The notes beneath the pieces are model-generated. The model did not search any database, had not been told where the DNA came from, and was given only the letters and a program-made list of their open reading frames with translations. From Paeniroseomonas aquatica (GTDB taxonomy: Bacteria; Pseudomonadota; Alphaproteobacteria; Acetobacterales; Acetobacteraceae), in the NCBI RefSeq assembly GCF_030409335.1, contig NZ_JAUFPN010000126.1, positions 458 to 50,516 on the forward strand: a DNA stretch of 50,059 nt. Reading direction: 5' to 3'. The position numbers and the translations under genes were made by a program. Positions 5,661 to 46,609 of this stretch are shown piece after piece. Positions within the stretch are counted from its first letter, which is position 1; every line of letters begins with the position of its first letter.

Positions 5661-5741
5661 GGGCGGCCCGGCCCGCCCTATGGCGGGGCCGGCCGGCCCT
5701 GCTAGAGAGGCGGCCGCAGCAGGATCGGGATCCCCTCCACC

Positions 5742-17430: not shown

Positions 17431-17489
17431 TACAGGCCTGAGCGCCCCGGCCCGCGGACCCCGCTCCGGCGTGCCGGCCGGGCTGTGCT

Positions 17490-20613: not shown

Positions 20614-20735
20614 TCACATGCCGAGGGCACGCTTGTAGAGGTCGAGCAGGGTCTCCTGTTCCTCGACCTCGGCCGGCTCCTTCTTGCGGAGCGAGATCAG
20701 GGTGCGCACCACCTTGACGTCGAAGCCTTTTCCAC
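20614..20735 (-). pseudogene. 3' fragment of gapR-like gene (DUF2312), cut by the island
   Basis: The minus strand encodes about 40 residues reading [18 protein letters not shown], then an acidic linker and [11 protein letters not shown] before TGA. This is the conserved C-terminal half of the GapR nucleoid-associated family (DUF2312), which binds overtwisted DNA. Upstream the frame hits a stop at 20755-20757 with no start codon between, so the N-terminal half is missing. Base composition falls abruptly at about 20735. The missing 5' part is not elsewhere in the window and presumably lies beyond the other end of the island. gapR is usually essential or important, so an intact copy elsewhere would be expected. 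Confidence 0.8.
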
Positions 20736-20784
20736 CCCTCGAAAATTTGTATCCTCACCCGAAGATCCTTGCCACCTCGCGACT

Positions 20785-20813
20785 TTGCAACCCGAATTCA
20801 GACCCTACATACT
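20785..20813 (+). promoter_or_regulatory. Possible sigma-70 promoter of the recombinase operon
   Basis: TTGCAA (20785-20790) and CATACT (20808-20813) are separated by exactly 17 bases, each matching four of six consensus positions. They lie 20-40 bp upstream of the first recombinase start, in the AT-richer DNA just inside the island edge. The region is also where recombinase arm or core sites should lie. Assignment is by eye only. Confidence 0.3.
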
Positions 20814-20832
20814 TCGTATTATCACCCACGCA

Positions 20833-22302
20833 ATGGAGGGGGAAGCCGTGTTGGAGGAGATGAGTATAACGGAGTCCTTAAGCGCACCTTTTAGCGTTGT
20901 CCGAACGCTTCCGACGATTACCAAGGAGGGGATCGAGCACCTACCATTCCTTTTTATGGACCAGGACGGGGCGGATTCATGTTGGCATCTGGAAGCGTTG
21001 GTGTATGCGCGTAGTGCCCGAGCCGGTTACGACTTGCCGACAGTCGAGCACGATCTTGAGGTAGTAGGACGCTTGTTCGATTTCTACCGTGTGTTTTGGA
21101 CCGGAGCTACGTTGACTGAAGATGATTTTGATTACCTGATTTATGCGTTTCTTGCTTGGCGTCATCGGGGCACAATTCAGAATGGGGCTTCTGTTCTGGG
21201 AGGGCTGCGGTGGCAACCGCTCGCTTTTACTTCGCTCCAAAGTGAATTTAGGTCGCTTGTTAGATATTGCCACTTTTCTTCTCGGACCTGGGGGCACGTC
21301 TCCATCGGGCGCTTCCGCCAGCAACTTAATCCTGACGGCGTTGCGCTGGCGAGAATGAAGAACTTAGGCAAAGAGCGCGAGCGGGATTTCCTCGTTCATC
21401 TCGGCGCATCAAGGGACCGCTGGGCTTCGGCGCTTGAGAAGGCCGTTGTAGAGATGCCTCCCGTCGCTATTCCGGAACGAAATGCGTCCAAAGCCGGCCT
21501 GAGCATTATGAATGACGCGCAGGTATGGGCTATTATCAATGCAGAAAAAAATCCAGTCTTCCGGGCACTGTGGTTGGTGGGCGCCTTCGGTGGCATTCGC
21601 ATCAGCGAGCAACTGAACACCTGGCAAATCGATGTTCTTCCTGGATCTTATCGTAAACTGGCGTTTGACTATGATGAAGGCGCTGAAATTTTATTTCTCC
21701 GCGCTGATCCAGTTCATTCACGATACGTTGGTGATCTCGGAAAACAAGGCGATACGCGCAAACAGTATTTGCACAAACAATACAATCTCCTACCGAGGAA
21801 CGCGCTCGGTCGGCGGGATCCACTGTATGCGGGATGGAAAGGTACCCTGTCGATTAACAGCGATTTCCGTATTTCGGAGGTGTTTTGGATTGACAGGCAG
21901 GCCGCCGCCTTATTCGCAGAGTGTGCAAGAGAGATAAGGGAGTTTCACCGACTTCACAAATCGAGTGAACGGCATCCCTATCTCTATGTAAATATGGCAG
22001 ATCCAACATTAGAATACCGCGGTGCGCCTTTAAAAAAGAGTAATGTCGAGGCTGCATTTGAGCGAGCATGTCGTCGCTGTGGAATAGAGCCCCATCGGTG
22101 GGGCGTCAGAATTCACGGGCTTCGACACTACTACAAAAGCTGCGCGGAGTCTCTTGGGATAGCTCCTGATCATATTCAGCTAATGATGGGACATAGCCGG
22201 ATACAGTCGCAGCAAAACTATGGACGCGGGGCACGAGAGGTCGCCAAGCAGCTATCTGAAGCACGCGAGCAACGTAAAAGCATATCTAAGGATCAAAAGT
22301 GA
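20833..22302 (+). CDS. Tyrosine recombinase, first of a recombinase trio (GmtY-like)
   Basis: Site-specific integrase of about 480-490 aa. The C-terminal catalytic domain has an Arg in FGGIRISEQLN (~residue 255), the HGLRHYY box (H-x-x-R, ~427-430), the GHSRI histidine and a QQNYGR tyrosine (~461). The N-terminal half would be the arm and core-binding region. The start is uncertain: ATG 20833, GTG 20848 (preceded by a GGAGGGGG run) and ATG 20860 are all in frame. Its stop overlaps the next gene's GTG by four bases. Codon composition is far less GC-rich than in the preceding 20 kb. By order and size it corresponds to GmtY of Gamma-Mobile-Trio islands. A Tn554 TnpA-like assignment is the main alternative. 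Confidence 0.85.
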   Translation: MEGEAVLEEMSITESLSAPFSVVRTLPTITKEGIEHLPFLFMDQDGADSCWHLEALVYARSARAGYDLPTVEHDLEVVGRLFDFYRVFWTGATLTEDDFDYLIYAFLAWRHRGTIQNGASVLGGLRWQPLAFTSLQSEFRSLVRYCHFSSRTWGHVSIGRFRQQLNPDGVALARMKNLGKERERDFLVHLGASRDRWASALEKAVVEMPPVAIPERNASKAGLSIMNDAQVWAIINAEKNPVFRALWLVGAFGGIRISEQLNTWQIDVLPGSYRKLAFDYDEGAEILFLRADPVHSRYVGDLGKQGDTRKQYLHKQYNLLPRNALGRRDPLYAGWKGTLSINSDFRISEVFWIDRQAAALFAECAREIREFHRLHKSSERHPYLYVNMADPTLEYRGAPLKKSNVEAAFERACRRCGIEPHRWGVRIHGLRHYYKSCAESLGIAPDHIQLMMGHSRIQSQQNYGRGAREVAKQLSEAREQRKSISKDQK

Positions 22303-25300
22303 CCTACCGGTATGAAGTAACGAGTGCAACCAATACAGTTACGCTAGATACAGATGGTGTAGCCTATTCCAACGCTGCGGGATCGTCGGTGCTAGTTGGA
22401 ATCCGCACCATCTCGATGTCGGAGCTTCGCTCACTTTGGGCTTCTTTCAAAGATCAGCTTCGGCACGCGTTGAGCGATGCGCTTAGCAAAACGCCGCCTG
22501 AATTTGTGAGTTGGCACATTTACGGCGAAAAATTTGATTTAAGTCCAAAGATTATATCTTCGAACAGCTGCGTGGGCTTCAAAAGGAAGGCTGTCGGGTA
22601 TCCAAAGCTGCATTACATGCGGCAATCAGCTATTGTCCAAGCTTTGCTCGATCTAGGCTTGGTGCCCAAAACCGATGCGCACGGAAAACCAAGAAAGAAT
22701 ATTCCAAGAGGCGCTGGGGGGGCACCCGCTTTTTGCCAGGATTTGCCCTCAGAACTGCAACTCAAAGTTATGCGACAGGCATTCAGCGACCCTTACATGT
22801 CGCTTGATGACATCCTGACGCTTCCCAGCCAAAATAGTGTCGTGGATATTGAGGCCATAGAAAAAGCGTTTGCAGAGTGCCGGGATGCTGATGACGTTAT
22901 GCGGCACTTGGCCGCAATGTTATGGGACTTCGATCGACTGCAGGATACGATGGCTCTAGGCGGTAGGGGTGCCGGTCTCCATTACGCCGCACCTTGGTTC
23001 CTTATGTATCTCGCACGAGAGGATTACATTCTCTTTCCTCGTCTTATATATCCAGACTCCTTGTTACCAAGATTTGTGGCGCCCTTGCTTTGGACATTTT
23101 TTATGCCGAAGGCAGCAAGAAACTTAGCGCTTCATCTAGTCAAGCACCCTGGTGAAGATCAGTGGACATACACGCGTCCCGTCCTCCGAGAACTTTTTCT
23201 TTATACGAATTTTTTTAGACTTGAAACAAGTACCATAGCATTTGCACATTTCGTAAATTTTAAGCGTGAATATACATTATCTGAGACTGGGGCAGAAGTT
23301 GTACGCGAGGGTGCTGGGGTACTATCTCATGGCCTAAATCGTCTCTTTGATGCTTACTTAAATTTTCATGGAAAAACCTGGGAGGATGTCGGCTCAGACG
23401 CAAGATATTTTGGAGGTGGGTACAGAATTACTTCCGACAATTCAAGAGATGCCTTTTCCTGGGTGGAGCAACCTAAGGGCCATAAGCTTGTGCTTTATCG
23501 CAAGCACATCGGAGAGCCTCCAGAGACATTCCCGGGGCATATTCAGGAGTGGGCACGTGATCTGCGAGCTATTTTGCTCTTGTATGGAGTTCAGTCTCCC
23601 GCGAATAAGATTGATTCACTAAACTATTGGCTAATTTTCTTGATGAAATTGGGAGATGACGCACCGAGAAACTGGTGCGAAGTTGAACGCGAGCGACACA
23701 TTAATCATGTTGGTTTAGCTGTCCACCTAACCTTTGTCGACTTCATACGCAGTCTTGATCGGGACACTCGTTTTCGTATTTTGCCGGATATCCAACAAGC
23801 TTGGCATTTGGCCGCAGTGCGAGATGGTTTCCTGGGAAAACTTACTAACCCAATCGACCCAAATGTCGACAATCTAGGATTTACTGATCCAAATTCGGGG
23901 GAAAATCGTACGCGGCGACAGGCAATGCCCGACGATCTCTACCAGCTCGTTATCAGAGAAAATCGACGGAATAACTATGAGTTTGCCAAGTCGACGGTTT
24001 CCAAAGCAGGAGCACGGCCTGCGCGAAATATTCATTGGCGGTCCGTTAATGATCCGAGCACCAAGCAGCGAGTTGAGGTGTTCTGGCCTGGTATACCTAT
24101 CATGCTCGACATGATTTTAAGCCAAGGCCTGAGGCAGGCCTCTGCGATGTGGGCAGACTCGGGTGAGGGCGACGAGTTTTGGGTGAATACCGAAACCCTA
24201 GAATACTATCCAAACCCACTTCCTATGCGCACGTTAGGACGGCAGCTGGGTTTTTTACGTGTCTGCCAACTTGGCCCCAAGAAGGATGACAAGGTTCTTG
24301 GGATGTACGTCGCTGTGAATAAGACTGGGCCGTACGAAGTTGCTTGGGTCGATCCTGCGACCGCGACAGCCTATCAGGAAATGCGCGCTTGGCAGGCCCG
24401 ATATACCCCAAGGCGGACACCGACGAAGGCTAGCCGCGATGATATTCAAAAGCTTTATGCGGGTCAGGGTACGATTCCTGAAGTGTACCCTTTATTTAGG
24501 GACCCGGAGTCTCGGTCTGGACACCCACCTTCATCGACGACCCTTTACGCGTATTGGGGCACGCTGCTTGGACACTGCGAAAAAATCTTCGAACAGACGA
24601 CTGGGCGGTTTGAGTCTTGCTTGGTAAATGGCAAGCCAAGATGGGATTTACATTCGTTACGCGTAACCACGATTTCGATCTTGCTTGAGCACGGTGTCGA
24701 ACCCTGGATCGTAGCTGAGCTTGCTGGGCACGCCTCTGTCACCATGACATGGCGCTATAAGGCACGAGATGGGCGTAAAACACACGCCGCGCTACAAAAG
24801 ATCCATGAAGAACGTCGCCTACTGGCGATTCAAAAATTGCAGGAACTTGGTGACCATTTTATTGAAAATGAGGACGACTTAGATGTCCGTTTGAAGGATA
24901 TTCTGGGGCCGTTTGTTAAATTCAGAGAAGATAACAACGGAGAAACGCTTTTACGTCAGCAGATGACGGAGGGCGGTCGCTATGAGACGTATGCACATGG
25001 CCTTTGCCCGGGTGGTGATTGTGCCACTGGCGGCGTGATCTACAAAAATGCATATCAACCAGTTTTTAGGCCGCGTGCTTGTTCACAGTGCCGGCACCGG
25101 GTTACAGGTCCACAGTTTTTGGCTGGGCTTGTAAACCGCTTGAACAGCTTCATGATTGAAATTAAGTCGTCTATGGACACAGAGGCTGATTTAAATCGGC
25201 AGATCGAGGAGATCGAAGATCAGGGGAAAGGCGGTGGTGGAAAGGTTGTCGCTCTTGGTGCGCTCATTCGACGGGAGCGGGAGTTGCGCGACAATCTCTG

Positions 25301-25811
25301 GGGTGAATGGTGCGCCGAATTGGCGACCATTCGTCAGTGCGAAAAGGAGCAAGACAGCGCGAGCAAAGGGTCAAATATGCCTTTAATTACACGTCAAAGC
25401 GGGGAAGATTTCAAACTGCACCTTGACACTGTGCATCAGATGGCTCTGTTGCACAATGTTCTTACAGATAGCGATATTATTCTCGGGGCCAGCCTCGAAG
25501 TTCCAGCCGGCTTACGAGAGCGTCGAGACACATTGTTACTCGAGGTAGCTCGTAATAATGATCTGGCGCCAGTATTCTATAAGCTTGCCCCGAGCCGGCG
25601 CAAGAAGGCATTGCAGCATTTTGGTGACCTGCTTCTCGGCCATATCGACGGTGTTTCCGAGCTTCAGCAACTCATTGATGGCGACCTCACGACACGCGAA
25701 CTTCCTGCGCTCGAGGTTGAACTAGAGGAATTTGTAGCAGCGGTGGAACGCGATTCGGCTCACCAACTCGATCAGATTAAGCCAGTGGCGTTGCGCGGGA
25801 GAGCCGACTGA
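22299..25811 (+). CDS. Very large tyrosine recombinase with C-terminal Cys cluster (GmtZ/VPA1269-like)
   Basis: A 1170-aa protein starting at GTG 22299. The first ~580 residues match no domain I recognise. A tyrosine recombinase catalytic domain follows: Arg in SQGLRQASAMW (~610), HSLRVTTISILLEHG (~784), AGHASVTMTWRYK with His ~809 and Tyr ~819. C-terminal to it is a cysteine cluster, HGLCPGGDCATGG (~900) and CSQCRHRVTGP (~925), probably metal-binding. A charged, likely coiled-coil region follows to the end. Ordinary integrases are 300-450 aa. The combination of large N-terminus, late catalytic domain and Cys cluster resembles the VPA1269 family, named GmtZ in Gamma-Mobile-Trio islands. It presumably acts with the upstream recombinase in excision and integration. 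Confidence 0.8.
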   Translation: MTYRYEVTSATNTVTLDTDGVAYSNAAGSSVLVGIRTISMSELRSLWASFKDQLRHALSDALSKTPPEFVSWHIYGEKFDLSPKIISSNSCVGFKRKAVGYPKLHYMRQSAIVQALLDLGLVPKTDAHGKPRKNIPRGAGGAPAFCQDLPSELQLKVMRQAFSDPYMSLDDILTLPSQNSVVDIEAIEKAFAECRDADDVMRHLAAMLWDFDRLQDTMALGGRGAGLHYAAPWFLMYLAREDYILFPRLIYPDSLLPRFVAPLLWTFFMPKAARNLALHLVKHPGEDQWTYTRPVLRELFLYTNFFRLETSTIAFAHFVNFKREYTLSETGAEVVREGAGVLSHGLNRLFDAYLNFHGKTWEDVGSDARYFGGGYRITSDNSRDAFSWVEQPKGHKLVLYRKHIGEPPETFPGHIQEWARDLRAILLLYGVQSPANKIDSLNYWLIFLMKLGDDAPRNWCEVERERHINHVGLAVHLTFVDFIRSLDRDTRFRILPDIQQAWHLAAVRDGFLGKLTNPIDPNVDNLGFTDPNSGENRTRRQAMPDDLYQLVIRENRRNNYEFAKSTVSKAGARPARNIHWRSVNDPSTKQRVEVFWPGIPIMLDMILSQGLRQASAMWADSGEGDEFWVNTETLEYYPNPLPMRTLGRQLGFLRVCQLGPKKDDKVLGMYVAVNKTGPYEVAWVDPATATAYQEMRAWQARYTPRRTPTKASRDDIQKLYAGQGTIPEVYPLFRDPESRSGHPPSSTTLYAYWGTLLGHCEKIFEQTTGRFESCLVNGKPRWDLHSLRVTTISILLEHGVEPWIVAELAGHASVTMTWRYKARDGRKTHAALQKIHEERRLLAIQKLQELGDHFIENEDDLDVRLKDILGPFVKFREDNNGETLLRQQMTEGGRYETYAHGLCPGGDCATGGVIYKNAYQPVFRPRACSQCRHRVTGPQFLAGLVNRLNSFMIEIKSSMDTEADLNRQIEEIEDQGKGGGGKVVALGALIRRERELRDNLWGEWCAELATIRQCEKEQDSASKGSNMPLITRQSGEDFKLHLDTVHQMALLHNVLTDSDIILGASLEVPAGLRERRDTLLLEVARNNDLAPVFYKLAPSRRKKALQHFGDLLLGHIDGVSELQQLIDGDLTTRELPALEVELEEFVAAVERDSAHQLDQIKPVALRGRAD

Positions 25812-26608
25812 TGGTGCAGCGAGCGTCAGAGCACATTTTGGTACGGCTCAGGAGTCAAGCGGAGACCTATGAAAAATCTGAGGTCCGGCTTGGTTCGATT
25901 GAGCGCCTAGTTACTGCTTGCGATGCGATAGAAAGTGGCGCGGCCGCCATCCTTTTATGCAAAATAGAAGGGTCCGACCTGGGCCTCGCTCGAACTCCCA
26001 AGATAAATCCTTCTAATATAGAAAAATACGTGCGAGCGCGGCAAAAACAGGGCTCTCAAGAGTGGACCGGCCCAACTCGGGTCTTTATAGCCTCAGACAG
26101 CGAACTAAAAGCGTACGTCACTGCCCGCGAGGATGAGCGACTTAAGCCAGCAGAGATAAGTAAGCGTCCCTCGCAGCGACAGAAGGATATTGAAGACACG
26201 GTGAGCCAGATACAGAGCATTGAAATGCGCCAAATCGTCAGGCACGATTTGGAAGAGGGCCGTCTTACAAGAAGGCGGTTAGATATCCTCACCGCTGGGC
26301 TTCGGACCCTGCCGGGCATTGATGTAGATGCATTACTGCGCGGCACACCTGGCGGTTCCCAAAACCGACCGGCGATTGGTGGCGAGGGCGTTTCGGCCTC
26401 CCTTACCCTTAGCCCTGAAGAGAAGGGAATTCTAAAGCGACTTTTGGACAGGCTGGCAGATACAGCCGAAATGGCCCGGGCAGGTCTGGAAAGCGACGGG
26501 CGTCGTCTTCGGCTGGCAATAGCGCCTCGAACAACCATTATTCGCCCCGATGAAATGAGTCTCCTGCGTCAGTTAGCGCAATTGGAGGACGTAAATGGCA
26601 AAGCGTGA
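25811..26608 (+). CDS. Uncharacterised 265-aa third member of the recombinase operon (GmtX position)
   Basis: The start overlaps the upstream stop by one base (TGATG). I recognise no firm domain. The N-terminal ~100 residues are a mixed alpha/beta segment with IERLVTACDAIESGA and a NIEKYVRARQKQG helix. The middle is charged and helical (ERLKPAEISKRPSQRQKD). The C-terminal third is rich in Leu/Arg helices. It occupies the place of GmtX in the Gamma-Mobile-Trio arrangement, but the resemblance is positional and I cannot confirm homology by eye. A DNA-binding accessory of the recombinases is the simplest inference. Confidence 0.65.
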   Translation: MVQRASEHILVRLRSQAETYEKSEVRLGSIERLVTACDAIESGAAAILLCKIEGSDLGLARTPKINPSNIEKYVRARQKQGSQEWTGPTRVFIASDSELKAYVTAREDERLKPAEISKRPSQRQKDIEDTVSQIQSIEMRQIVRHDLEEGRLTRRRLDILTAGLRTLPGIDVDALLRGTPGGSQNRPAIGGEGVSASLTLSPEEKGILKRLLDRLADTAEMARAGLESDGRRLRLAIAPRTTIIRPDEMSLLRQLAQLEDVNGKA

Positions 26609-27062
26609 TGTGGTGGCTGATATTCTTTGCCGCCTGAACGCTTTTATTGAACAGGGTGGCCAAATCCCGGGCACGGTTGATGGCAAGGTAAACGTGCTGG
26701 CCCTCTGTCGGGAACTCGGCTTGGCGGAGGCTGACGCCCAGCATTTCCATCGCAAGGACGCTATAAAGTCCGCCGTCAACGTACTCGCCGAGGAGCGAGC
26801 GTTGCGGGCCATCGGGGCGCGCGGTCAGCCGATGGAAGTGGCCGAGCAAAAACTGGAGGAGCGTATCAGTCGTGCTCAGAGCGATGCTCGTCAGGATGCC
26901 ATTGCTGCGACCGAAGCGTCCGCAGCGATTTCTGCGCTGGCTGAGGAACTGCGGGCCGCGCAAGGTGAGGTTTCAGAACTTCGAACTCAGAACCGAGCCC
27001 TGACCGAACGCCTCCGTCTCGTAGAAGAGTGCGGTTTGGTATTTGATACCGGGAACTGGTGA
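26595..27062 (+). CDS. Small HTH plus coiled-coil protein of the recombinase operon
   Basis: A 155-aa protein overlapping the previous gene by 14 bp, with its own GGAGG site before ATG 26595. Residues ~25-65 contain KVNVLALCRELGLAEADAQ, which looks like a small helix-turn-helix. Residues ~75-145 are heptad-like and rich in Glu/Ala/Leu/Arg, so a coiled coil is expected. In shape it recalls TnpC-type accessory proteins that assist paired tyrosine recombinases in Tn554-like elements. Homology is not shown. Its stop overlaps the helicase start. Confidence 0.65.
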   Translation: MAKRDVVADILCRLNAFIEQGGQIPGTVDGKVNVLALCRELGLAEADAQHFHRKDAIKSAVNVLAEERALRAIGARGQPMEVAEQKLEERISRAQSDARQDAIAATEASAAISALAEELRAAQGEVSELRTQNRALTERLRLVEECGLVFDTGNW

Positions 27063-29269
27063 TGCGACTCGCCGTGATGTCGATTCTCTCCTCCAGGAGC
27101 TTCGGATGCCTTTGGGCCGGAGTTGGCGAAGCTGGTGAGCGCATCAGGGTTAAATCAGACGAGCCTGTTTGGCCTGTCGTGGGCGAGGTTTATGACGTCG
27201 AAGGCGCCGAGGAAGCTTTCGAAGACAGTTGGGGGCGCAGGCATCGTCAAATCAGCGGTGCACGCCTGACCCGGATCCGTGCCTCTGGGCGGCTTCTAGT
27301 GCCTTGGCTTAGGCAACTTCCTGGCGTGGGCGAGACGCGTGCTACTCGCCTTTTGGAGCGTTTCGGGAATGACCTGCTTGACGTGCTGTCTGACCCAGCG
27401 CGAGTTGGAGAAGTTGCAGACGCCCTCGATCCGGAACGGCAGGCTCTGGCTGCACGGCTCGCCATCGCTTTGCAAGTCGCCTATGCGAAGCAAGCCTGCG
27501 TTGAGCGAGATAAAATGTCCGAAGGACACTTTTATGCCCGTCTGGAAGAGGTGGGCGTAGCAGATCGTACAGCTGCGCGGTCCCTCTGGCGTCTCCTAGG
27601 CAACGACGCCTGGGAGCGGCTTTGTCAGCGGCCTTACACAGCTGCCGTTGTAATTCCATGGGAACGAGCCGATCACTTAGGCCAGCGTCTCCTCTCAGCC
27701 GCAACGGGTACTTTGGACCTCCGAAGGCACCCTGATCGGCTTGCCGGGGCCTGCGATAGCGTCATTCGAGATTTACTGCGGCAGGGAGACACGGCTGCCG
27801 ACCCGGATGAATTTAGGAGGCGCCTAAGCAACAAGGCGGTGTCGGCAAAAGAGGCGCTGAAAACCGGCCTTGAGCGTCGCCGAGTGCTGGCATTTCAAGA
27901 TCTTATTGTTGCCCCGGGGGCGGCATACCTGGAAGGCGAGATTTACCGTCATATCCAACGCTTGCGCGCGGCGTCTGCGCCTTACTCCCTGGCCACAGAT
28001 GACCGAGCAGAGAAAGCCATAGAAACAGCCGAACGGACCACTGGGCTTGTCCTCACCGGCGAGCAGCGAACGGCCGTCCGGGTACTCCTCCATCAGGGTG
28101 TTGGCCTGCTGCAGGGAGGGGCCGGCACGGGTAAGACGACGTCCATGCGCGTGCTCGTGGCTGCCTGCAATATTATGGGGCGCCGTGTTGAACCCGCCGC
28201 CCTGAGCGGAAAGGCAGCACTCAAACTAGCGCAGGCGTCCCAGTTCGATGCGCTCACGATTGCCCAAGTCATTGAACGTCTAAAGCTGCGGGACGAACTC
28301 GAAGCTGAAGGGCGCCTCAGCTCAAATGACGATTATCTACGGGGCGAGAATGGCTTACCTCTCAAGCGCTTGCCGCGCCTTACCTCCGACACGACCCTGC
28401 TCCTCGACGAGGCAAGCATGGTCGATATCGCTAGCCTCCACCGGCTTCTGGGGCGCCTACCGGATGGTGGGGGTCTAATCCTCGTCGGCGACTTTAGTCA
28501 GCTCCCACCGGTAGGCATCGGGCAAGTCTATCACGACTTGGTCGAGGCACGGCACGGGGTCGTCGAGCTGACGCAAATCTTGCGGCAGGCCGACGGCAAC
28601 CCGCTACTCGCCGTGGCGGCGGCGATCCGGCACGGACAGGTTCCGCTGCTTCCGAAATTTACCGGCGCCGCAACCGGCGTGCAGTTTCAGGAATGTACTT
28701 TGAAGGGGGTTGCCGATCAGTTGAGGGTGGTTCGGCACCGGTTGGTTCAGGAGACTTTTGAAGATGACCTCCTTGTCCTCTCCGCCCGAAAGACGACAGC
28801 AGGAAGTGTCTGCCATGGAGAGATGTCTCGACGACAAACAGAAGGTGCGGAGGGCGTCCGCCTTGGCCCGCTCTGCGTTTGGGTCTCCATCGGAGATCCC
28901 GTGATGATGGGGGTCAACCATTACAAGTACGGCTTGGCGAACGGACAACTTGGCCGGGTCACGTCGATCAACCCCGTCCAGATCCAGTGGGACGGCTCCG
29001 ACCATTCGTTCGAGGTCAATGAGGATTATCGTGGCGATGTGGTCTCTGCTTGGGCAATCACCTGCCACAAGAGCCAAGGTTCGGAAGCTCGCCGGGTGAT
29101 CATCGCGTTAGACTCAAAGCGGATGCTGACCCGCCAATGGCTTTACACAGCGGTTACACGAGCTCAGGAGCAAGCCGTTCTCGTTGGTCCCGGTGAGCTC
29201 TTTAATCTCGCCATTCAGCAGATTGCTATGCGAACCACGCTGTTGTCGCGGCTCTGCCAGCATAAGTAG
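27059..29269 (+). CDS. RecD2-type superfamily 1B DNA helicase
   Basis: A 736-aa helicase. The N-terminal ~100 residues form a beta-rich domain, followed by a helix-hairpin-helix-like stretch (LRQLPGVGETRATRLLERFG), as in RecD2. The SF1 motor has Walker A GGAGTGKTTS, motif II LLLDEASMVD, motif III GDFSQLPPVG, a CHKSQGSEARRV box and the C-terminal YTAVTRAQEQAVLVG. It starts at GTG 27059 or ATG 27062. It is the fifth gene of the unbroken operon. RecD2 proteins unwind 5'-3' and act without RecBC. Here it may process island DNA during transfer or be the first cargo gene. It is followed within 170 bp by an IS21 remnant. Confidence 0.88.
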   Translation: MMRLAVMSILSSRSFGCLWAGVGEAGERIRVKSDEPVWPVVGEVYDVEGAEEAFEDSWGRRHRQISGARLTRIRASGRLLVPWLRQLPGVGETRATRLLERFGNDLLDVLSDPARVGEVADALDPERQALAARLAIALQVAYAKQACVERDKMSEGHFYARLEEVGVADRTAARSLWRLLGNDAWERLCQRPYTAAVVIPWERADHLGQRLLSAATGTLDLRRHPDRLAGACDSVIRDLLRQGDTAADPDEFRRRLSNKAVSAKEALKTGLERRRVLAFQDLIVAPGAAYLEGEIYRHIQRLRAASAPYSLATDDRAEKAIETAERTTGLVLTGEQRTAVRVLLHQGVGLLQGGAGTGKTTSMRVLVAACNIMGRRVEPAALSGKAALKLAQASQFDALTIAQVIERLKLRDELEAEGRLSSNDDYLRGENGLPLKRLPRLTSDTTLLLDEASMVDIASLHRLLGRLPDGGGLILVGDFSQLPPVGIGQVYHDLVEARHGVVELTQILRQADGNPLLAVAAAIRHGQVPLLPKFTGAATGVQFQECTLKGVADQLRVVRHRLVQETFEDDLLVLSARKTTAGSVCHGEMSRRQTEGAEGVRLGPLCVWVSIGDPVMMGVNHYKYGLANGQLGRVTSINPVQIQWDGSDHSFEVNEDYRGDVVSAWAITCHKSQGSEARRVIIALDSKRMLTRQWLYTAVTRAQEQAVLVGPGELFNLAIQQIAMRTTLLSRLCQHK

Positions 29270-30547: not shown

Positions 30548-33379
30548 CTATGTCAGCCTCCTTTCTAATAACTCAACTTCGTCTGATGTAAGGCCGAACA
30601 GCGCGTAGACAGCGGCATCAATTTGCCTAATATGCATCTTGATTTGACGCTCGACCACAACAGACTGCGGCCCTGTTTTGAGTTTGATTATTGAAGTAGC
30701 GATTTTTTCCAAGTGGCCAAGATTTGTAGGATTCGGAATGGGAAGCAGTTCAACAAACTCCTTCTTAACTTCAGCCAATGCTTCGCCAGCTTCTGGATTC
30801 ATGACTCGCAGGCACCAAGTCATCAATTTACAGTTCAAAAGGGCTAAGATACCCATTAGATTTTTTAAGCCGTCGTGAGGAGCCAAAACATGAAGATTAT
30901 TTAGGCACAAGAATTGCTGATCATCAAGAGCCGCTATTATCTCATCCCCTGTCTGCCTAACTAGAATTTTAGTAATGGCGTCGAAATTCGCAGATGGCCT
31001 TGGCTCTGCCAACCAAGGCCCATATCTTAGAAAACGCTGTTCTAGGGGCTTGATTTCAAAACGCCCAATGTCTCTTCCGCGCAGGTACTGCCGGTACTCG
31101 TTGGATATTTTTTTAGAGGCGTCGAAGGTGCGGTTCTCAACTATGTCCTTCGTTTGTGCGGGTTTTCCCTTACCGATCTGATAAGGCTTCACTCCAACAT
31201 TTACTTTAAAAAGCGCATCGACTGTAAACGGTTGCTTAAAAATCTTATTGCGCAGCCGCCGCTCCGCATCAGATAGAAAGACATTTATCGGCTTATCGGC
31301 AAGCTTTAACCAATCATCCTGGTTGCCCTCAATTAGCTCTGCATGCTCGAGAAGTTCGCCCACCGGCTCAGACGGAACTATATGAACCTGAGGCTTGAAA
31401 TTTTTCCTGTATCCATTCTGAAGCACTACAATTTCTGTATCGACAACCACTCTTCTGAAAACAGAATAGCGAAAATGCACTATTTGTTTAACGGCAGTGT
31501 GGCCCATTACTAGTCGCCGCAGCTTGTCTTGGCGAATGTTGCTAATCCATGGATTAGGTATGATCATTCCCCATAAGCCATCTTTATGAAGCAATTTCTT
31601 TATGCTGAGCTCCATAAAAAGCAAGTAACTGTCGAGTTGGTACGATTGCTCTTTGTAATGCGTCTGAAGAAATTTCTTCTCAAGTGGATAAAGTGTGGCT
31701 CCGTATGGAGGATTACCAAGTACGACGTCAAACTTGCCTTTTTTAAAAATTGCGGCGTATTCTTCCTGCCAGTCAAAAGCATTAATTCGATAGACATCTT
31801 CTTCTGTTAACAGCGGTAGGTCACCCTGGTCATGAAACTCACTTCCAATCAGACTGTTGCCACATTTTATATTATTTCCTAAATCTGGAAGCGCACGCTC
31901 ATGAAATAGAGACAGGTTCTTACCAATTGCCTCTCCCGTTTCGCCCTCAAGAACCTTAAGCAAAAGCGATAGCTTAGTTACTTCTACCGCCTGCGCGTCG
32001 ATATCAACGCCGAATATATTGTTAAGCAAAATTGCCTTGCGAACTTGTGTGGTGAGCCTCAACGCTCCCTTCTCCGTGTGCCTGAGCTCTTTTTTAAATT
32101 TGGCTATTCCACCGTTGGCCACAAAATAATTCAAATGCCAATCCAATAGGTGCTGATATGCGACAATAAGAAAAGATCCGGAACCGCATGCCGGATCAAG
32201 AATTTTCAGTTTCTCGACCTGTTTAGGAGTTTTTCCTTCGAGAAGGCTATCCACCGTCTCTTTGACGATGTGCTCAACAATATAACTGGGGGTGTAATAT
32301 ACGCCGCCGGCTTTTTTAACTTCCGGCTTTTCCTCGATTATTGCTTTCTTGCCGTCGACTCGAATGACTTTTCCTAAAAATCTTTCATAGATTTGGCCTA
32401 AGATGTCGGCAGGAATAACCGAGAATTCGTATGGATTAGGCGGATATAAACTTTCAACGATTTCTCGAAGTGGGGCATCGTCAATTTTAAGTTTGAGAGT
32501 TAAAAGGTCGGGATCAGTTGCATTTTTTTCCTTGGGATTAAAATGAAATAGTCCCGAATTGTATTTATCGTCTGCGTCCTTGAATAGATTTGTGAGGCGC
32601 TGGTAAATGCCTTTTTGCTTTACCGTTTTTAGAAGACGCTCGTATAGCTCAATGCCGCGGTCCTCGCATATTCGAAGAAATATTACACGATCAATAATTA
32701 GTTGGACGGCGAGATTTAAGTCGCGTTGGGTCATTTGATTGCCCTGCAAGATATTGCTTGCAAGAGACTGACGCCATCCTTCTATCTCAGAAAGAAATGC
32801 CTCATCTACGGTGGTGGTGCCCTTCTTCTTGGCGTCAGCAAATTTATCGAAAGAACCTTTTAGGATCGCTTCCTTAGAGAAAAGAGCATAAATCTCGTCC
32901 CATTTGTCTTCATAATCGGTATATTTATAGTAGTATAGACGCGCTTTTGCGGCGGAGTGATTTTCTTCCGGTTTGTGCGTGCAATCATATACTGCAAATT
33001 CCTCAAAATCAGTCAGAATGCTTATCGGCAGCTTTGCACTCCAACCGTACCGCCGCAATTGAAAAGCCGGCTTTGGATCACCGCTGATCGATACCGAGGG
33101 CCTTTTCGCCTCGACGAAAAACTTCCGCATCCCTCCCACGCGAAAGGAGTAATCTGGTGCCTTTTTGGCGGTTCCAACTAGTACCATATCCTCATGTATT
33201 ACATCTCTATAAGCTTCGGCGTAATCATTATTGTTGTGGATGTCCCATCCGAGAGCTTTAAAAAACGGGTCGATAAAATCTATCCGCACCTGCGTCTCAT
33301 TGTATGAACCCAACAAGTAGGCCGGACTTTGCTCATCGAATCTTTTAACTAGCTTGCGAATGCTATCGGGGATTGTCAT
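30548..33379 (-). CDS. Type IIG restriction-modification enzyme (single-chain nuclease-methyltransferase)
   Basis: A 943-aa protein (start ATG 33379) that should both methylate and cut DNA at the same site. The N-terminal nuclease domain shows a PD-(D/E)xK pattern (PDYSF at 75-79 and FFVEAKRP with EAK at 90-92). The amino-methyltransferase core has motif I ILDPACGSGSFL (393-404) and motif IV NPPY (556-559), implying adenine-N6 methylation. The C-terminal ~300 residues are a TaqI-like specificity domain (YRQYLRGRDIGRFEIK). The gene is markedly AT-rich compared with both the core and the recombinase operon, so it was acquired separately. No partner specificity subunit is nearby. It is intact and probably functional in phage defence. 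Confidence 0.93.
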   Translation of the reverse strand: MTIPDSIRKLVKRFDEQSPAYLLGSYNETQVRIDFIDPFFKALGWDIHNNNDYAEAYRDVIHEDMVLVGTAKKAPDYSFRVGGMRKFFVEAKRPSVSISGDPKPAFQLRRYGWSAKLPISILTDFEEFAVYDCTHKPEENHSAAKARLYYYKYTDYEDKWDEIYALFSKEAILKGSFDKFADAKKKGTTTVDEAFLSEIEGWRQSLASNILQGNQMTQRDLNLAVQLIIDRVIFLRICEDRGIELYERLLKTVKQKGIYQRLTNLFKDADDKYNSGLFHFNPKEKNATDPDLLTLKLKIDDAPLREIVESLYPPNPYEFSVIPADILGQIYERFLGKVIRVDGKKAIIEEKPEVKKAGGVYYTPSYIVEHIVKETVDSLLEGKTPKQVEKLKILDPACGSGSFLIVAYQHLLDWHLNYFVANGGIAKFKKELRHTEKGALRLTTQVRKAILLNNIFGVDIDAQAVEVTKLSLLLKVLEGETGEAIGKNLSLFHERALPDLGNNIKCGNSLIGSEFHDQGDLPLLTEEDVYRINAFDWQEEYAAIFKKGKFDVVLGNPPYGATLYPLEKKFLQTHYKEQSYQLDSYLLFMELSIKKLLHKDGLWGMIIPNPWISNIRQDKLRRLVMGHTAVKQIVHFRYSVFRRVVVDTEIVVLQNGYRKNFKPQVHIVPSEPVGELLEHAELIEGNQDDWLKLADKPINVFLSDAERRLRNKIFKQPFTVDALFKVNVGVKPYQIGKGKPAQTKDIVENRTFDASKKISNEYRQYLRGRDIGRFEIKPLEQRFLRYGPWLAEPRPSANFDAITKILVRQTGDEIIAALDDQQFLCLNNLHVLAPHDGLKNLMGILALLNCKLMTWCLRVMNPEAGEALAEVKKEFVELLPIPNPTNLGHLEKIATSIIKLKTGPQSVVVERQIKMHIRQIDAAVYALFGLTSDEVELLERRLT

Positions 33380-33537
33380 ATACCCACAGTTCCTTATCAA
33401 TTTTAACACTAACTTCTTCGTTATTCTATCTTAGGTTCCGGTCCTGAAGGTGTCACCTTATAAAATTCCATACCATGTACCCTAGCTGCTGTGATCTAAT
33501 CTATGCGGCGTCGCATTCGAAGGCGCTGGCGCATATT

Positions 33538-42360: not shown

Positions 42361-44271
42361 CTAATCAGAGTAGGTCTGTGGTAACTCAAACCCCATCTCG
42401 GTAAGAAATCTAGACGGCATCTTTCCCCAGTTGCCGTAAGTATCCGCATAAGAAAGGCATAACCATTCTTTAGCTCGCGTAATCGCAACGAAGCAATTTC
42501 TCCTTTCTTCTTCCATTTCGGGACTATTTTCTCCGAGCTTAACGCTATGGAAACTAGGGAGAATGCTTTCTGCCATACCAGCTAAAAAGACATGATCGAA
42601 CTCTTTCCCTTTAGCAGCATGAATGGTCATTAAAGCAACCATTGATTTCACAGGCGGAGGCTCTTTTGACCTGATAGACAGCTCTTGGAGAAATTGTTCA
42701 AGAGGCGCATCGCGACCAATAGCTCTTGAGATGTTTCGATTTAAGTCGTTCCAAGCGTTCCTATCTTCTGCAAGATCTACGAGGCTTTCGTCACCGGTCG
42801 GTAGATCTTGTATCACGGCATCTATGAAGTGTCGAAAACGCGATGGCTCTTTCCCATATTTGGCAGTGAGTTCCGCCAGCTTTAATCCCGCAGCGTCAAT
42901 CTGAGGTGGGACCGCGGCTGCCCATTCGTCCAAATACGACCGGTTAGAAACCTCTGCTGCTGCTATAATATCGCCAACTTGTAGTTCTGTACCCCACCAA
43001 CGATTGAACGCGCCAATCAAAGCCTCAAGAGCTCGCGTATCTAAAGGTCTAAGCGTCTGTCGGAGCACAGCTGATAGCCATAGAAATTCGGGTGAACGAA
43101 AGTCGTCGCGCCGTTGAGCAATCGCCGCAGGTACGCCAGCTGTGCTTAGAGCTTGCTGGATGCGTTCGAGCATGGCACGTGTGCGGGCCAAAACAACGAC
43201 TTCGCTCCAGAGGCTTTTGTCGATACTTTTAATCCCACGTGCAACTGCAGCTGCTTCTGCGGTATCCGACGAAAAGCGCAACAAAGAAATATGAGTGCCG
43301 TCAGGGTACCTAAGATTTTTTTTGCCAGCTTCCAATGGCAATTTGGTCTCAGTTCGTTGCGAATTGTGTATTACGAGGCGGTTAGCCGCCATAACAATAC
43401 TGGGGGGGCACCGGTAATTCGTTGGAAGCTGGATTTCTTGTGGTGCAAAGTCTGCCCGGAATCGTTGTATCTGCTGGTAACTTGCGCCGTTCCATTGATA
43501 AATTATTTGGTCGTCATCTGCCACTGCAAAAATATTCTTGAAACTATCACCGGCTAGTGCCCGTATTAGTCGATATTGTCCATCGTTTGTATCTTGGAAT
43601 TCGTCGAAAAGCCAATATTTGTACGTTCTACGATAGGTGGTAGCAATTCCTGGATTGTTGGAGATTAAACTATGGGCGGCAGATATGAGAGAGCCGAAGT
43701 CTAAGGCATTCGCACGTAACAGCGCATTCTCATAAGCTCTGTAGGAATTCGCGATTCGACTTCCAGCCTCTTTATCTCGAAAGCTATTGGCGCTTTCTTC
43801 TGGCGAAATCAGACGCGATTTTAGCTTATCGATGATATTTAGGAGTTTTATATCTCCGTAACCCAGCCCTGCCTGTTTTAAAGCATCTCGTAGAAGCTCT
43901 TGTCTATCTGCATCAAGAGAATAAATAGCAAAATCCGGTCTTATGCCGATGTGAGAACCGTGCTGTTGCAACATTTGCATACAAAATGAATGAAATGTAC
44001 CTATCAGGGCTCTACGCTCCTGATCTGGAACCAAGACGCTGACGCGCGCCGACATTTCATCAGCTGCTTTATTGGTGAATGTTAACGCTAGGACGCGGAA
44101 GCTTTTATCCGGACTGTCGGATAAAAGTTTTGCAATTCTCGTTGTCAGAACCCGAGTCTTGCCCGAACCCGGACCAGCCAAAACAAACAGAGACCCTTCA
44201 TTCCAACACGAGGCAGATGCCTGAGGGGGCGTTAGCTCAGCAAGAGCTTGTTCCACTAATATCGTCATCAC
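42361..44271 (-). CDS. gajB: UvrD/Rep-type helicase, Gabija GajB-like
   Basis: A 636-aa superfamily 1A helicase. Seen are the Q-motif region, Walker A LAGPGSGKT (31-39), motif Ia ALTFTNKAADEM, motif II FDEFQDTN, motif III VADDDQIIYQWNGA, motif IV QLPTNYRCP, motif V MTIHAAKGKEFDHVFLAG and motif VI VAITRAKEWL. It starts at GTG 44271 or ATG 44268, overlapping the stop of the OLD-type nuclease gene. UvrD-like partners of class 2 OLD nucleases are GajB; in Gabija defence the pair responds to phage-induced changes in nucleotides and DNA ends. It is slightly longer than typical GajB (about 500 aa) and close to full UvrD length. Moderate GC content sets it apart from the core. Confidence 0.85.
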   Translation of the reverse strand: MMTILVEQALAELTPPQASASCWNEGSLFVLAGPGSGKTRVLTTRIAKLLSDSPDKSFRVLALTFTNKAADEMSARVSVLVPDQERRALIGTFHSFCMQMLQQHGSHIGIRPDFAIYSLDADRQELLRDALKQAGLGYGDIKLLNIIDKLKSRLISPEESANSFRDKEAGSRIANSYRAYENALLRANALDFGSLISAAHSLISNNPGIATTYRRTYKYWLFDEFQDTNDGQYRLIRALAGDSFKNIFAVADDDQIIYQWNGASYQQIQRFRADFAPQEIQLPTNYRCPPSIVMAANRLVIHNSQRTETKLPLEAGKKNLRYPDGTHISLLRFSSDTAEAAAVARGIKSIDKSLWSEVVVLARTRAMLERIQQALSTAGVPAAIAQRRDDFRSPEFLWLSAVLRQTLRPLDTRALEALIGAFNRWWGTELQVGDIIAAAEVSNRSYLDEWAAAVPPQIDAAGLKLAELTAKYGKEPSRFRHFIDAVIQDLPTGDESLVDLAEDRNAWNDLNRNISRAIGRDAPLEQFLQELSIRSKEPPPVKSMVALMTIHAAKGKEFDHVFLAGMAESILPSFHSVKLGENSPEMEEERRNCFVAITRAKEWLCLSYADTYGNWGKMPSRFLTEMGFELPQTYSD

Positions 44272-46181
44272 TCTAACCCTCTAAGCGAGATGATTGCATC
44301 TCGAAAAGCCTTTGGCATGCGCGCCGCAAGGGCCGCATCCTGTGCACATTTGCGGCCTAGAACGGCTCCGTAGGCACTTTTGCTCGCAACCAATGCCTTC
44401 AAAAGTGCCGCGTCATCGTAGGTTGGCGCTTTAGTTTCGCCGATATCCAGCAAAGATGCCTTTAGTTCGGCTTGCAATCCGTCCGCGATGAGCTGCTGTT
44501 CAATATCGCCTTCGGCTAGTTGATAGGTGCGGTGGGCAATCTCGGCAACATTAAAGCCCCGAGGCGAAAGTTTCTGAATATAAGATGTTCCAGCTGCGTC
44601 CCCATCAACGATCATTAACCATGGGTAGCCTAAAGCTCTTCCTAAGGCACAAAAACATTCAGGATTGCCGTTGTTTTGAAAGTCGATCACCGAAACTCCG
44701 TGTTCGTCGAGATTATAGCCAAGGCCCTCCGCAATGCCATGAACCAAATGATATTCGCATTGGCCTTCGACAAGCAACCATCTTCTCGCAAAGAAAATCT
44801 CGCCTCGTATTCGCCTTGCGAATGTTTCTAGCTGCGCCAGCTCTTCATCCGGTATAAAGCGTTGTGACAGTTCATACACACGTTTGAGCTCAACGCCAAT
44901 TGCGGCACGATCAGGGTGGGTGCCATATGCGGTTAAGAGATCGCGGTAGATATTTTGGCCGAGAACTTGATGCACCACAATTTGGCCGAGTGAGCCATCA
45001 TAACTTAACCGACCAGCTGATTTCGCCATTACCGCAAAAATAGAGGGTAGGTTAGGACACGACGCGCGATATTCTGTTGGGAGTGAATGAACAGTTGTTC
45101 CATTATTTCCAACACGAACAATCCGGATATCACGGAAGGGTACGTGTTCAAGGAAATAAGGTGAGTGTGTGCTGGCAATTTTTTGCCCAGGCAGTTCGGA
45201 AATGTGACGCCAAAGGGTGCGGGCTGCTTGTGGATGCAGATGTGTCTCTGGTTCTTCGATTGCAAGAACTGGAGAACTTTCTGGTCTGTATAGTTCATCG
45301 AGAAGATGCTCTATAAATGCTTTGAATAAAAACATTACTGACAGGCTTTGTACGCCTTGACCGTGCTTATGCAGTGGAAGCCAAGGTTTGTTAGCTTCAG
45401 ACTTATATATCACTTCAGCTTTGGAAAGTATGTCCCATGTGTTTAAAGGCAGAAGCCGAAGGTCGGCTTCACCCGGTTGGTCCGCGGAAGCAATACGACT
45501 AATTGTTGAAAGTCCCGAAGATAAAGTTCCAAGAAGTGGGTCTGCTCGCAAAAGCTTTTTGTTGAGTAGGTCGAATACTCGTTGCGATTTTTTTTCAAGA
45601 TCATCAGGTATTTGAACGGCTTTGAGTAACCGTCCCCAAAACTGGCTGCGGCTAGAAAATTCGTCCCCAGCGTCCCTGATTGCTTCCATATAAAATGCTG
45701 GGATGAACTGGAAAAACTCTTGGAGATTTAGCGCTCTAGCGCCCCGGCCAACAAGCGGTTGTCGGGTTACATTGAGGAATTCCCATTTAGGTATAAAGCT
45801 TTCTTCTAGAGCGTCCCAAGCACAACTCACGCGAAGAATAATTGATGCGACGCCAGATACAGGGTCGGTTTGGATAATATCGGCGAGATCTCCATGAATG
45901 TTTTCATGCCATTCGTTTGCAACGTTCTCTTGTATTTCAAGCTCAATTACAACCGGGTCTCCAATCTTTGGATCTGGCCGGGACTCACATAAATGTATGT
46001 CGTATTCGGTAAATCCGGTGCCCCGTTGTCCCCACCGCCTCGTCAGCGCTATGCGTATTGCTTCTAAAATGGCTGTCTTGCCCGAATTATTCGGACCAAT
46101 TAGAACAGTGTTTTCGCCGAATTCAATATCTGCTGACCGGATCGACCGAAAATTATTAATTCTTACCCTCTTTAGCCGCAT
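44268..46181 (-). CDS. gajA: OLD-family ATPase/TOPRIM nuclease, Gabija GajA-like
   Basis: About 637 aa from ATG 46181, preceded by AAAGGGG. The ABC-type ATPase has Walker A IGPNNSGKT (28-36), a signature-like KHGQGVQSL segment, Walker B VLAIEEPETHLHP (305-317) and the STHSPYF H-loop (337-343). A TOPRIM nuclease domain follows, with LLVEGQCEYHL (Glu472) and MIVDGDAAG (Asp526, Asp528). A class 2 OLD nuclease directly upstream of, and overlapping, a UvrD-like helicase gene is the Gabija arrangement. Known GajA forms a tetramer that nicks DNA when NTP levels fall. All key residues are in place, so the system is probably active. PARIS and Lamassu were considered but lack this helicase partner. Confidence 0.88.
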   Translation of the reverse strand: MRLKRVRINNFRSIRSADIEFGENTVLIGPNNSGKTAILEAIRIALTRRWGQRGTGFTEYDIHLCESRPDPKIGDPVVIELEIQENVANEWHENIHGDLADIIQTDPVSGVASIILRVSCAWDALEESFIPKWEFLNVTRQPLVGRGARALNLQEFFQFIPAFYMEAIRDAGDEFSSRSQFWGRLLKAVQIPDDLEKKSQRVFDLLNKKLLRADPLLGTLSSGLSTISRIASADQPGEADLRLLPLNTWDILSKAEVIYKSEANKPWLPLHKHGQGVQSLSVMFLFKAFIEHLLDELYRPESSPVLAIEEPETHLHPQAARTLWRHISELPGQKIASTHSPYFLEHVPFRDIRIVRVGNNGTTVHSLPTEYRASCPNLPSIFAVMAKSAGRLSYDGSLGQIVVHQVLGQNIYRDLLTAYGTHPDRAAIGVELKRVYELSQRFIPDEELAQLETFARRIRGEIFFARRWLLVEGQCEYHLVHGIAEGLGYNLDEHGVSVIDFQNNGNPECFCALGRALGYPWLMIVDGDAAGTSYIQKLSPRGFNVAEIAHRTYQLAEGDIEQQLIADGLQAELKASLLDIGETKAPTYDDAALLKALVASKSAYGAVLGRKCAQDAALAARMPKAFRDAIISLRGLE

Positions 46182-46609
46182 CAAATAGTACCCCTTTCCA
46201 GTCCGCACTAGTTATTCAACCCTACTATTTAAGCGTAACGAGCTCCAGCGATGTTTCCTTATTTCATTATAGGCATGTAAAAAAACCGAAACAAGCTTGC
46301 TCTCAGGTAAAGCAGCGTTCCAAGGGGCAAGCACGCTCCTTGGTCGATGGGGTCCAGGGGAGAGCGAAGTCTCCGCTTGGTCGTGATCCACCCGGGAGAG
46401 GGTGGCGGACATCCAAACCGCGCAGGGTTGGCTATGGGGTGTCGGGGAGCGCGGAGGCTCCCTGACTGGTGGTGCGTCGGCCAAACGACTCATGGCGCAG
46501 ATCCGGCCCAAAGCCGGTGAATGCGCCATAGGCTGGGGATATCCAACGGGGGCGGGCACCGCCCCCTTGGCAAGATTGCGATACTACACCGCATATCTTG
46601 CACTCTTCG
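46182..46609. other. Hairpin-rich non-coding gap upstream of gajA
   Basis: No convincing gene in 428 bp. The first 120 bp are AT-rich and should hold the gajA promoter. From about 46330 the DNA becomes GC-rich with several foldbacks: GGAGA/TCTCC around 46353-46368, GGGGAGC/GCTCCCT around 46444-46464, and a strong 8-bp stem GGGGGCGG / CCGCCCCC with a GCA loop (46548-46566). The style resembles the inverted-repeat regions beside mobilisation genes, so an oriT remnant is possible. It could also be an RNA gene. Neither can be decided by eye. Confidence 0.45.

Follow-up and report, generated by a model that had tools for sequence, protein, structure and literature searches.

Gamma-Mobile-Trio (GMT) islands, with their proteins GmtX, GmtY and GmtZ, were reportedly described by Mahata et al. 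in 2024. Mobile islands usually pick harmless sites or mend the end of the gene that they hit, and to our knowledge no GMT island has a fixed target in gapR together with a carried replacement gene. We analysed a stretch of 50,059 nucleotides (the window) from Paeniroseomonas aquatica, a draft genome of 313 contigs, which holds an operon of five genes, called here genes 1 to 5; genes 1, 2 and 3 and their homologues are also called Y, Z and X. Judged from sequence, this operon is very probably the left-end integration module of a GMT-like integrative island, which belongs to a distinct alphaproteobacterial clade and has its attachment site in the middle of gapR.

The likeness to GMT islands lies in a homologous trio in the order Y-Z-X, placed at an island end, and in the defence cargo. 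The differences are that Y and Z of the window fall under the equivalog cut-offs, that some members carry the extra pair 4-5, and that the clade of the window has a fixed gapR target and brings a replacement for it. The five-gene GMT loci of gammaproteobacteria, on a Providencia IncC plasmid and in Vibrio vulnificus, share the order Y-Z-X-4-5, and their RecD-like fifth protein is 25-26% identical to gene 5 of the window; they differ in gene 4, as the similarity of the window's gene 4 to VPA1267 is not significant. A GapR match was obtained in only one of 14 control genomes, that of Caulobacter, from which we infer that these gammaproteobacterial loci must use another site.

Three further kinds of element were compared. 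Strand-biased circularizing elements (SEs) carry 6 bp of the host at attL and a 6-bp fingerprint of their own at attR, and follow a copy-out like route (PMC10214605). The elements studied here resemble them in the module at the left end, the 6-bp core, the host core at attL and the foreign core at attR; they differ from them in gene content, the SE set being intA, tfp, intB and srap, and SEs are reported from gammaproteobacteria only (PMC10214605). For GInts (ginABCD), 6-nt staggered cuts were inferred (PMC5385486). These share with our locus several tyrosine recombinases, a small helix-loop-helix/coiled-coil protein and insertion at the 5′ end of a protein gene; they have four genes, the main text of their description does not use the word helicase, and no replacement gene appears in the passages covered (PMC5385486). 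Islands targeted to tRNA genes or dusA likewise insert site-specifically in a conserved gene (PMC4383910, PMC4482086). tRNA-site islands mend the disrupted gene with island sequence at the junction, whereas the clade of the window carries a complete separate gene and its target stays broken.

The gapR target and the gene that comes with the island

The left edge of the island cuts the gapR gene of the host at 20722-20727, a cut that the sequence-only reading had missed. Positions 20727-20617 of the window correspond to GapR residues 65-101 (tblastn), are 100% identical to a GapR from the same genus and cover positions 35-72 of the PF10073 model. This C-terminal part (20614..20727, minus strand; 37 codons and the stop, cut at GapR residue 65) is the host flank of attL. 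The crossover core of attL (20722..20727, minus strand) is 6 nt long and reads GGCTTC in the gapR direction; the left island end follows at 20728..20757, and its first 12 nt are the inverted-repeat arm pairing with the right island end. The earlier proposal that the module sits at an island edge was thereby made precise: the left edge is at 20728, inside gapR.

The genome of the window host contains three GapR-domain matches, namely the C-half in the window, the N-half on contig C21 (L029) and a complete gapR on the same contig, with no further match over the family cut-off. The island is thus inserted at GapR codon 65 and host gapR is split. The complete gene, hereafter the spare, starts 160 bp beyond the core at the N-half (C21 6989-7300) and encodes 103 aa, 76% identical to the rebuilt native GapR. 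Downstream of it come a transposase-like ORF, recognised by eye (7339-8196), and then the contig end, inside the island. In the seven other same-genus genomes searched gapR is intact, and both flanks abut at the core. One genome of the genus, G300, carries another intact copy besides its intact native gapR, on a contig of 3.4 kb (L032, C198).

To find sister elements, GTDB contigs were scanned with the Z alignment as one pattern, which gave 11 loci. Six of them belong to the clade of the window: Tardiphaga, Allosphingosinicella, Kiloniella, Aliihoeflea, Roseicella and Rhizobium sp. Root1334. All six genomes contain the N-half, the C-half and an intact gapR near the N-half, which with the window host makes 7/7, and in each of the seven the joined halves yield a whole GapR protein. 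The distance from the right core to the start of the spare is always 100-265 bp, and the spare has the orientation of the N-half. Where both island ends lie on one contig, the length is 62.3 kb (Tardiphaga), 26.4 kb (Rhizobium) or 46.4 kb (Allosphingosinicella). The seven Z proteins found at gapR form one clade with support 100/100 in a tree of 24 rows.

The frequency of this arrangement was estimated in 385 alphaproteobacterial genomes, the same draw serving for the GapR and the Z searches. GapR was matched at E 1e-5 in 274 of them. Since the gapR halves of the seven elements score E 5e-12 or better, a genome with both halves would show two or more GapR matches. We therefore re-listed in full 27 genomes: three whose single match was weak and 24, other than the window host and Kiloniella, that had more than one GapR match; none of the 27 has both an N-half and a C-half, G397 showing partial matches at contig ends. 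A split gapR with a spare thus occurs in 2/385 genomes, the window host and Kiloniella (G556), and in 0/383 others. The same two genomes only have a Z of the gapR-site clade, at 1535 and 1417 bits, the next score being 42 bits among the matches listed, best first. At E 0.001 the Z search reached at least 369 of the 385 genomes among the matches listed; below the top two these are short matches to the catalytic box. A weak Z match was seen in genome G118. Some alphaproteobacteria carry two or more gapR genes without any split.

Relatives of two sister hosts were inspected in the same manner. Both gapR halves were found in none of ten same-genus relatives of Tardiphaga and in none of ten same-family relatives of Kiloniella. 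The gapR flanks abut in the nine Tardiphaga relatives tested and in three same-genus Kiloniella relatives; two more distant Kiloniella relatives gave no alignment on both flanks.

Over the seven elements the core has the consensus GG[CT]T[TA][CT]. Its length of 6 nt was deduced from the shared stretches, which measure about 5-8 nt, and from how the seven junctions align in register. When the reverse complement of the left end was compared with the right end, the inverted arms matched at 64 of 84 positions over the seven elements (7/12 in the window). Slid positions gave 21-25 matches and shuffled arms a mean of 27.1 (sd 4.1), and none of 5000 shuffles was as high. In three elements the attL and attR cores differ, and in 3/3 the attL core is one present in intact host relatives: GGCTTC of the window in 6/7 same-genus intact gapR genes (attR core GGCTTT), GGCTAC of Tardiphaga in 8/9 relatives (attR core GGTTTC), and GGCTTC of Kiloniella in its closest relative only (attR core GGTTTC), the second relative having GGCTTT and the pattern search not finding the site in the third. 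None of the three attR cores was seen in the relatives read of its own host. All three elements with differing cores thus show what is described for SEs, a host 6-mer at attL and a foreign 6-mer at attR; in the other four (4/7) both cores are alike and uninformative on polarity.

The three gapR-site elements with genes 4 and 5 share a 15-nt motif, TGTAGTGTGTATGTA, located 17 nt inwards of the right core (L029 6846-6860; L095 5909-5923; L099 6861-6875). The window host and Kiloniella have the same 15 letters, and Roseicella deviates at two positions. The motif is not found at that place in the other four elements, of which Aliihoeflea shares the first six bases there; elsewhere, matches with 4 mismatches occur at about chance level.

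The spares are intact in 7/7 elements, each being 60-80% identical to the GapR of its own host. Native and spare genes differ at 97, 63 and 270 first, second and third codon positions, respectively (448 codons). We also considered that the spares are one element-borne lineage; this was rejected, as they do not cluster on the tree (5 changes, shuffled mean 5.2). The spares of the window and of Roseicella are sisters (92/91). A stop codon directly follows the core in 4/7 elements, which terminates the broken 5′ half at that point and leaves the spare as the gene that comes next. From its sequence and position the spare probably replaces the function of the broken gapR.

Genes of the operon

As the sequence-only reading had stated, five ORFs on the plus strand overlap head to tail; their ends were re-derived and the overlaps are 4, 1, 14 and 4 bp. 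Gene 1 (20833..22302, plus strand, most likely starting at the ATG at 20833) encodes a GmtY-like tyrosine recombinase of 489 aa, which matched the GmtY model NF040693 with 129.8 bits (E 1.6e-37, equivalog cut-off 340). Gene 2 (22299..25811, plus strand) encodes Z, a GmtZ-like (VPA1269 / Integrase_2) tyrosine recombinase of 1170 aa, which scored 158.2 bits with the GmtZ model NF047926 (E 2.3e-46, equivalog cut-off 600) and 39.3 bits with Pfam Integrase_2, PF13009. Residues R612, K675, H785, R788, H811 and Y820 are invariant in the 8 aligned sequences, the window's included. So are C903, C908, C928 and C931, the C-terminal Cys cluster that had been recognised earlier. No relative of Z was found among viral contigs.

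Gene 3 (25811..26608, plus strand; 265 aa) matched no NCBIfam model at E 1 or better, the cut-off of GmtX NF040692 being 40 bits, and a profile-profile comparison was for this reason made. Gene 3 with six sister proteins, compared with 14 GmtX-type rows, gave a probability of 98.1 and E 8.5e-14 over 217 columns. The Roseicella homologue of gene 3 bridges the two groups by BLAST (3e-10 to the GmtX of Azonexus, 1e-6 to gene 3). The structure model of gene 3 is weak (pLDDT 71, pTM 0.41). The 1170-aa and the 265-aa proteins are therefore detectably similar to GmtZ and GmtX, and the earlier assignment of genes 1 to 3 to the trio holds at profile level. From these profile and profile-profile matches, genes 1-3 are divergent relatives of GmtY, GmtZ and GmtX by homology, outside the strict NCBIfam equivalog definitions: homologues of Y, Z and X stand together, in order, in a module at the edge of an island with cargo. 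In two GMT loci, on Pseudomonas and Halomonas plasmids, greB adjoins gmtX downstream (L011 8312-8815; L012 8325-8798).

Gene 4 (26595..27062, plus strand) encodes 155 aa, a helix-turn-helix and a long coiled-coil helix, and is 44.7% identical to its counterpart in Acidiphilium and 53% to that in Roseicella. The AlphaFold2 model from 4 aligned rows (pLDDT 87) has helices 34-41/45-53 followed by a 66-residue helix, 80-145. Against named families it gave weak matches only, of coiled-coil type; the fold search found nothing at E 0.001 or better in PDB or BFVD, and no confirmed relative was found among viral contigs. The VPA1267 model NF040697 (cut-off 90 bits) gave no match at E 1 or better, and the profile-profile comparison with VPA1267 was not significant (probability 3.4, E 0.013). 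Common descent with VPA1267 was dropped as unproven, and the equivalence of the two is positional.

Gene 5 (27059..29269, plus strand) encodes a RecD2-like SF1B helicase of 736 aa, as had been read from its sequence; it scored 267.9 bits with TIGR01448 over residues 86-731, below the cut-off of 500. The Walker A and other helicase columns are invariant in 9 rows, and identity is 41% to Acidiphilium and 51% to Roseicella.

The pair 4-5 was detected by tblastn at E 1e-4 in 7/26 GMT-type loci, in three gene orders. These 26 loci are the window, 13 plasmid loci found with Z (L005-L017), 11 genome-contig loci (L046-L056) and G209, a genome of the host's family; the Providencia locus, found via the helicase, and the plasmid hits H6 and H8, with scores like those of H5 and H7, stand outside the count. 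Absence of the pair means absence within the fetched flanks, which in L009 and L049 are cut by the record or contig end; in L009 only Z is visible, and tblastn did not detect X in L053, L054 and L056. The pair follows X in Kiloniella (Y-Z-X-4-5), separates Z from X in Acidiphilium and in a Bradyrhizobium metagenome-assembled genome (Y-Z-4-5-X) and precedes Y in G209 (4-5-Y-Z-X). In Roseicella the trio and the pair are on two separate contigs. In Vibrio vulnificus and on the Providencia plasmid the order is again Y-Z-X-4-5, and there gene 4 passes the NCBIfam VPA1267 cut-off. In all three positions, across alpha- and gammaproteobacteria, the pair mostly overlaps or abuts the trio. The recurrence of genes 4 and 5 beside the trio in sister loci agrees with the sequence-only reading; that they are a new alphaproteobacterial addition is not supported. 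On the Marinobacter plasmid, the GMT locus shows a short VPA1267-like gene or fragment after gmtX (L008 10397-10663), with no helicase in the flank.

Neither gene 4 nor gene 5 was found by tblastn in the Tardiphaga, Rhizobium and Allosphingosinicella islands, read end to end, and gene 4 was not found in the whole Tardiphaga, Allosphingosinicella, Aliihoeflea and Rhizobium genomes, gene 5 not having been searched genome-wide. On the Z tree (fragments L009, L015 and L017 left out, Providencia included), presence of the pair takes 7 changes, at least 6 of them forced by starred branches, and is no more clustered than shuffled labels (354/500 as low). The Acidiphilium helicase groups with the three gapR-site helicases (100/100, with unresolved branching inside), and its Z stands elsewhere on the Z tree. 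Because of this mismatch and the scattered presence, genes 4 and 5 appear to travel together from one GMT lineage to another. Since it is missing from three end-to-end sister islands with the same target site, we regard genes 4-5, by their distribution among sequenced loci, as a real but accessory pair. As a marker of the gapR-site clade the pair was rejected, being present in 3/7 members. RecD matches on Bradyrhizobium CB82, Bealeia and Arsenophonus plasmids form the outgroup of the helicase tree, and no annotated recombinase of the GMT kind stands beside them in the flanks shown. On the Sinorhizobium meliloti plasmid pEm1132b (L039 1738-10091), a different tyrosine-recombinase operon (394, 369, 785, 151 and 135 aa) is followed by a RecD2-like helicase; its 135-aa protein resembles a VPA1267-type gene 4.

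Proposed course of insertion and competing explanations

In the mechanism that we propose, GmtY and GmtZ, helped by GmtX, would cut around the core and recombine a circular form of the island with gapR. GapR is described as essential in Caulobacter (PMC6853979; PMC7498317), and for that reason the island would survive by replacing the gene. As it follows straight after the native promoter and the broken 5′ half, the spare could be transcribed from the native promoter or from its own. Precise excision would restore native gapR; if the island were lost imprecisely, six of the seven genomes would be left with no intact gapR, which would stabilise the island. The protein of gene 4 may bind to the end of the island, and the RecD2-like helicase may open the DNA while the island is excised or a circle is copied out; such a helicase would suit a copy-out step in which strands have to be separated. 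Roles of this kind for the interchangeable accessory pair 4-5, in end binding and DNA opening, are put forward tentatively, as serious candidates short of probable ones.

A wider reading is more doubtful, and we offer it as speculation. The clade would integrate only in gapR, destroying and replacing it, so that the spare acts as a toxin-free addiction device and may tune chromosome topology for the element; transposition would be copy-out-like, with the 6 nt taken from each former host gapR serving as a travel record and gene 4/RecD2 as exchangeable helper. By disrupting a gene essential in Caulobacter and supplying a full substitute for it, the seven divergent elements may represent a route to host dependence without a toxin, and the foreign 6-mer at attR may record the previous host. 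The seven mapped ends are candidate attachment sites for GMT-like recombinases, by which excision, the roles of the five proteins and the choice between copy-out and cut-and-paste become testable. No literature was found that links GapR, genomic islands and integrase, or, among the papers listed, that names gapR as an integration target, in a search that did not reach the GMT paper itself. The island is of a known, GMT-like kind. As far as the searches show, its new features are a clade specific for gapR, the complete target gene that the island brings along, attachment sites of a GMT-like element that have been mapped and show a core polarity like that of SEs, and an exchangeable pair of gene 4 and RecD2.

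Several observations weigh against this picture. The essentiality of GapR is known from Caulobacter, not from the hosts of these elements. Kiloniella has an extra, divergent GapR match (73 bits), the other five sister genomes having no further match over the family cut-off, and two GapR matches occur in 6/10 same-genus relatives of the Tardiphaga host. In view of these additional genes in Kiloniella and the Tardiphaga relatives, dependence on the spare may not be general, and addiction through gapR becomes slightly less probable. The evidence for core polarity comes from three elements, and for Kiloniella from a single close relative, and the codon-position bias between native and spare genes mostly reflects divergence before insertion. 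In Aliihoeflea, Z and X (L049 100-4496) face the C-half, the reverse of their orientation in the window, and the contig breaks off at Z; in Tardiphaga, 16 kb separate the module from attL. The island of the window host is split over two contigs, its middle and full length lying outside what was covered, and its Y and Z stay under the NCBIfam equivalog cut-offs for GmtY and GmtZ.

Genes 4 and 5 could instead be first-position cargo, for example a defence or repair pair, that abuts the operon and takes no part in mobility. Their absence from the three end-to-end sister islands with the same target, that of gene 4 from the four whole genomes searched and the scatter over the Z tree all suit such cargo. 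Set against them are the three positions in which the pair mostly overlaps or abuts the trio in both alpha- and gammaproteobacteria, the related pair of the Sinorhizobium locus beside other tyrosine recombinases, and the 15-nt right-end motif, which goes with the pair in the gapR-site clade; on balance we consider passive cargo unlikely, though to be reckoned with. Much less probable is that the element is a GInt, an SE or a Tn554-type island and no GMT relative. The 6-nt core, the module at one end, the coiled-coil fourth protein and the core polarity would agree with the GInt and SE descriptions (PMC5385486, PMC10214605), but Y, Z and gene 3 match the GmtY, GmtZ and GmtX profiles. General profile scans of the window proteins returned no Tn554-named model; no search was aimed at GinA-D, IntA/Tfp/IntB/Srap or TnpA-C.

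The complete gapR beside the broken one might also be an ordinary paralogue, unrelated to the insertion, given that some alphaproteobacteria have two or more unsplit gapR genes and that G300, of the same genus, has a second intact copy. That in 7/7 elements it is flanked by the right core, 100-265 bp away, on one side and by the remainder of the island on the other, and runs in the direction of the N-half, makes this very improbable, as do the abutting flanks, with nothing between them, of relatives with an uninterrupted gapR. It is hardly credible that the split arose in the computer by misjoining of contigs: the window host is indeed a fragmented draft with its gapR halves on two contigs, but the same arrangement stands on single contigs in Tardiphaga, Rhizobium and Allosphingosinicella, and the codon cut is the same and the arm sequences alike across elements. 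A GMT-like island attached in gapR thus remains the explanation that we prefer.

Cargo and surroundings of the operon

The defence genes that had been noticed downstream were confirmed among ten ORFs scanned there. They comprise a type IIG restriction-methyltransferase (30548..33409, minus strand; PDLC03604, 632 bits; Eco57I domain) and a Gabija pair, GajB (42361..44271, minus strand; PDLC00114, 825 bits) and GajA (44268..46208, minus strand; PDLC00062, 897 bits). The shift in composition, likewise pointed out before, was quantified in 1-kb steps: G+C falls from 0.70-0.78 before the 20-kb point to 0.45-0.61 within the operon (21-29 kb), and is 0.42-0.70 across the remainder of the window. ARAGORN found no tRNA gene in the window. 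Left of the island, 17476-18648 and 4511-5673 are 75-77% alike in opposite orientation and are probably paralogous genes.

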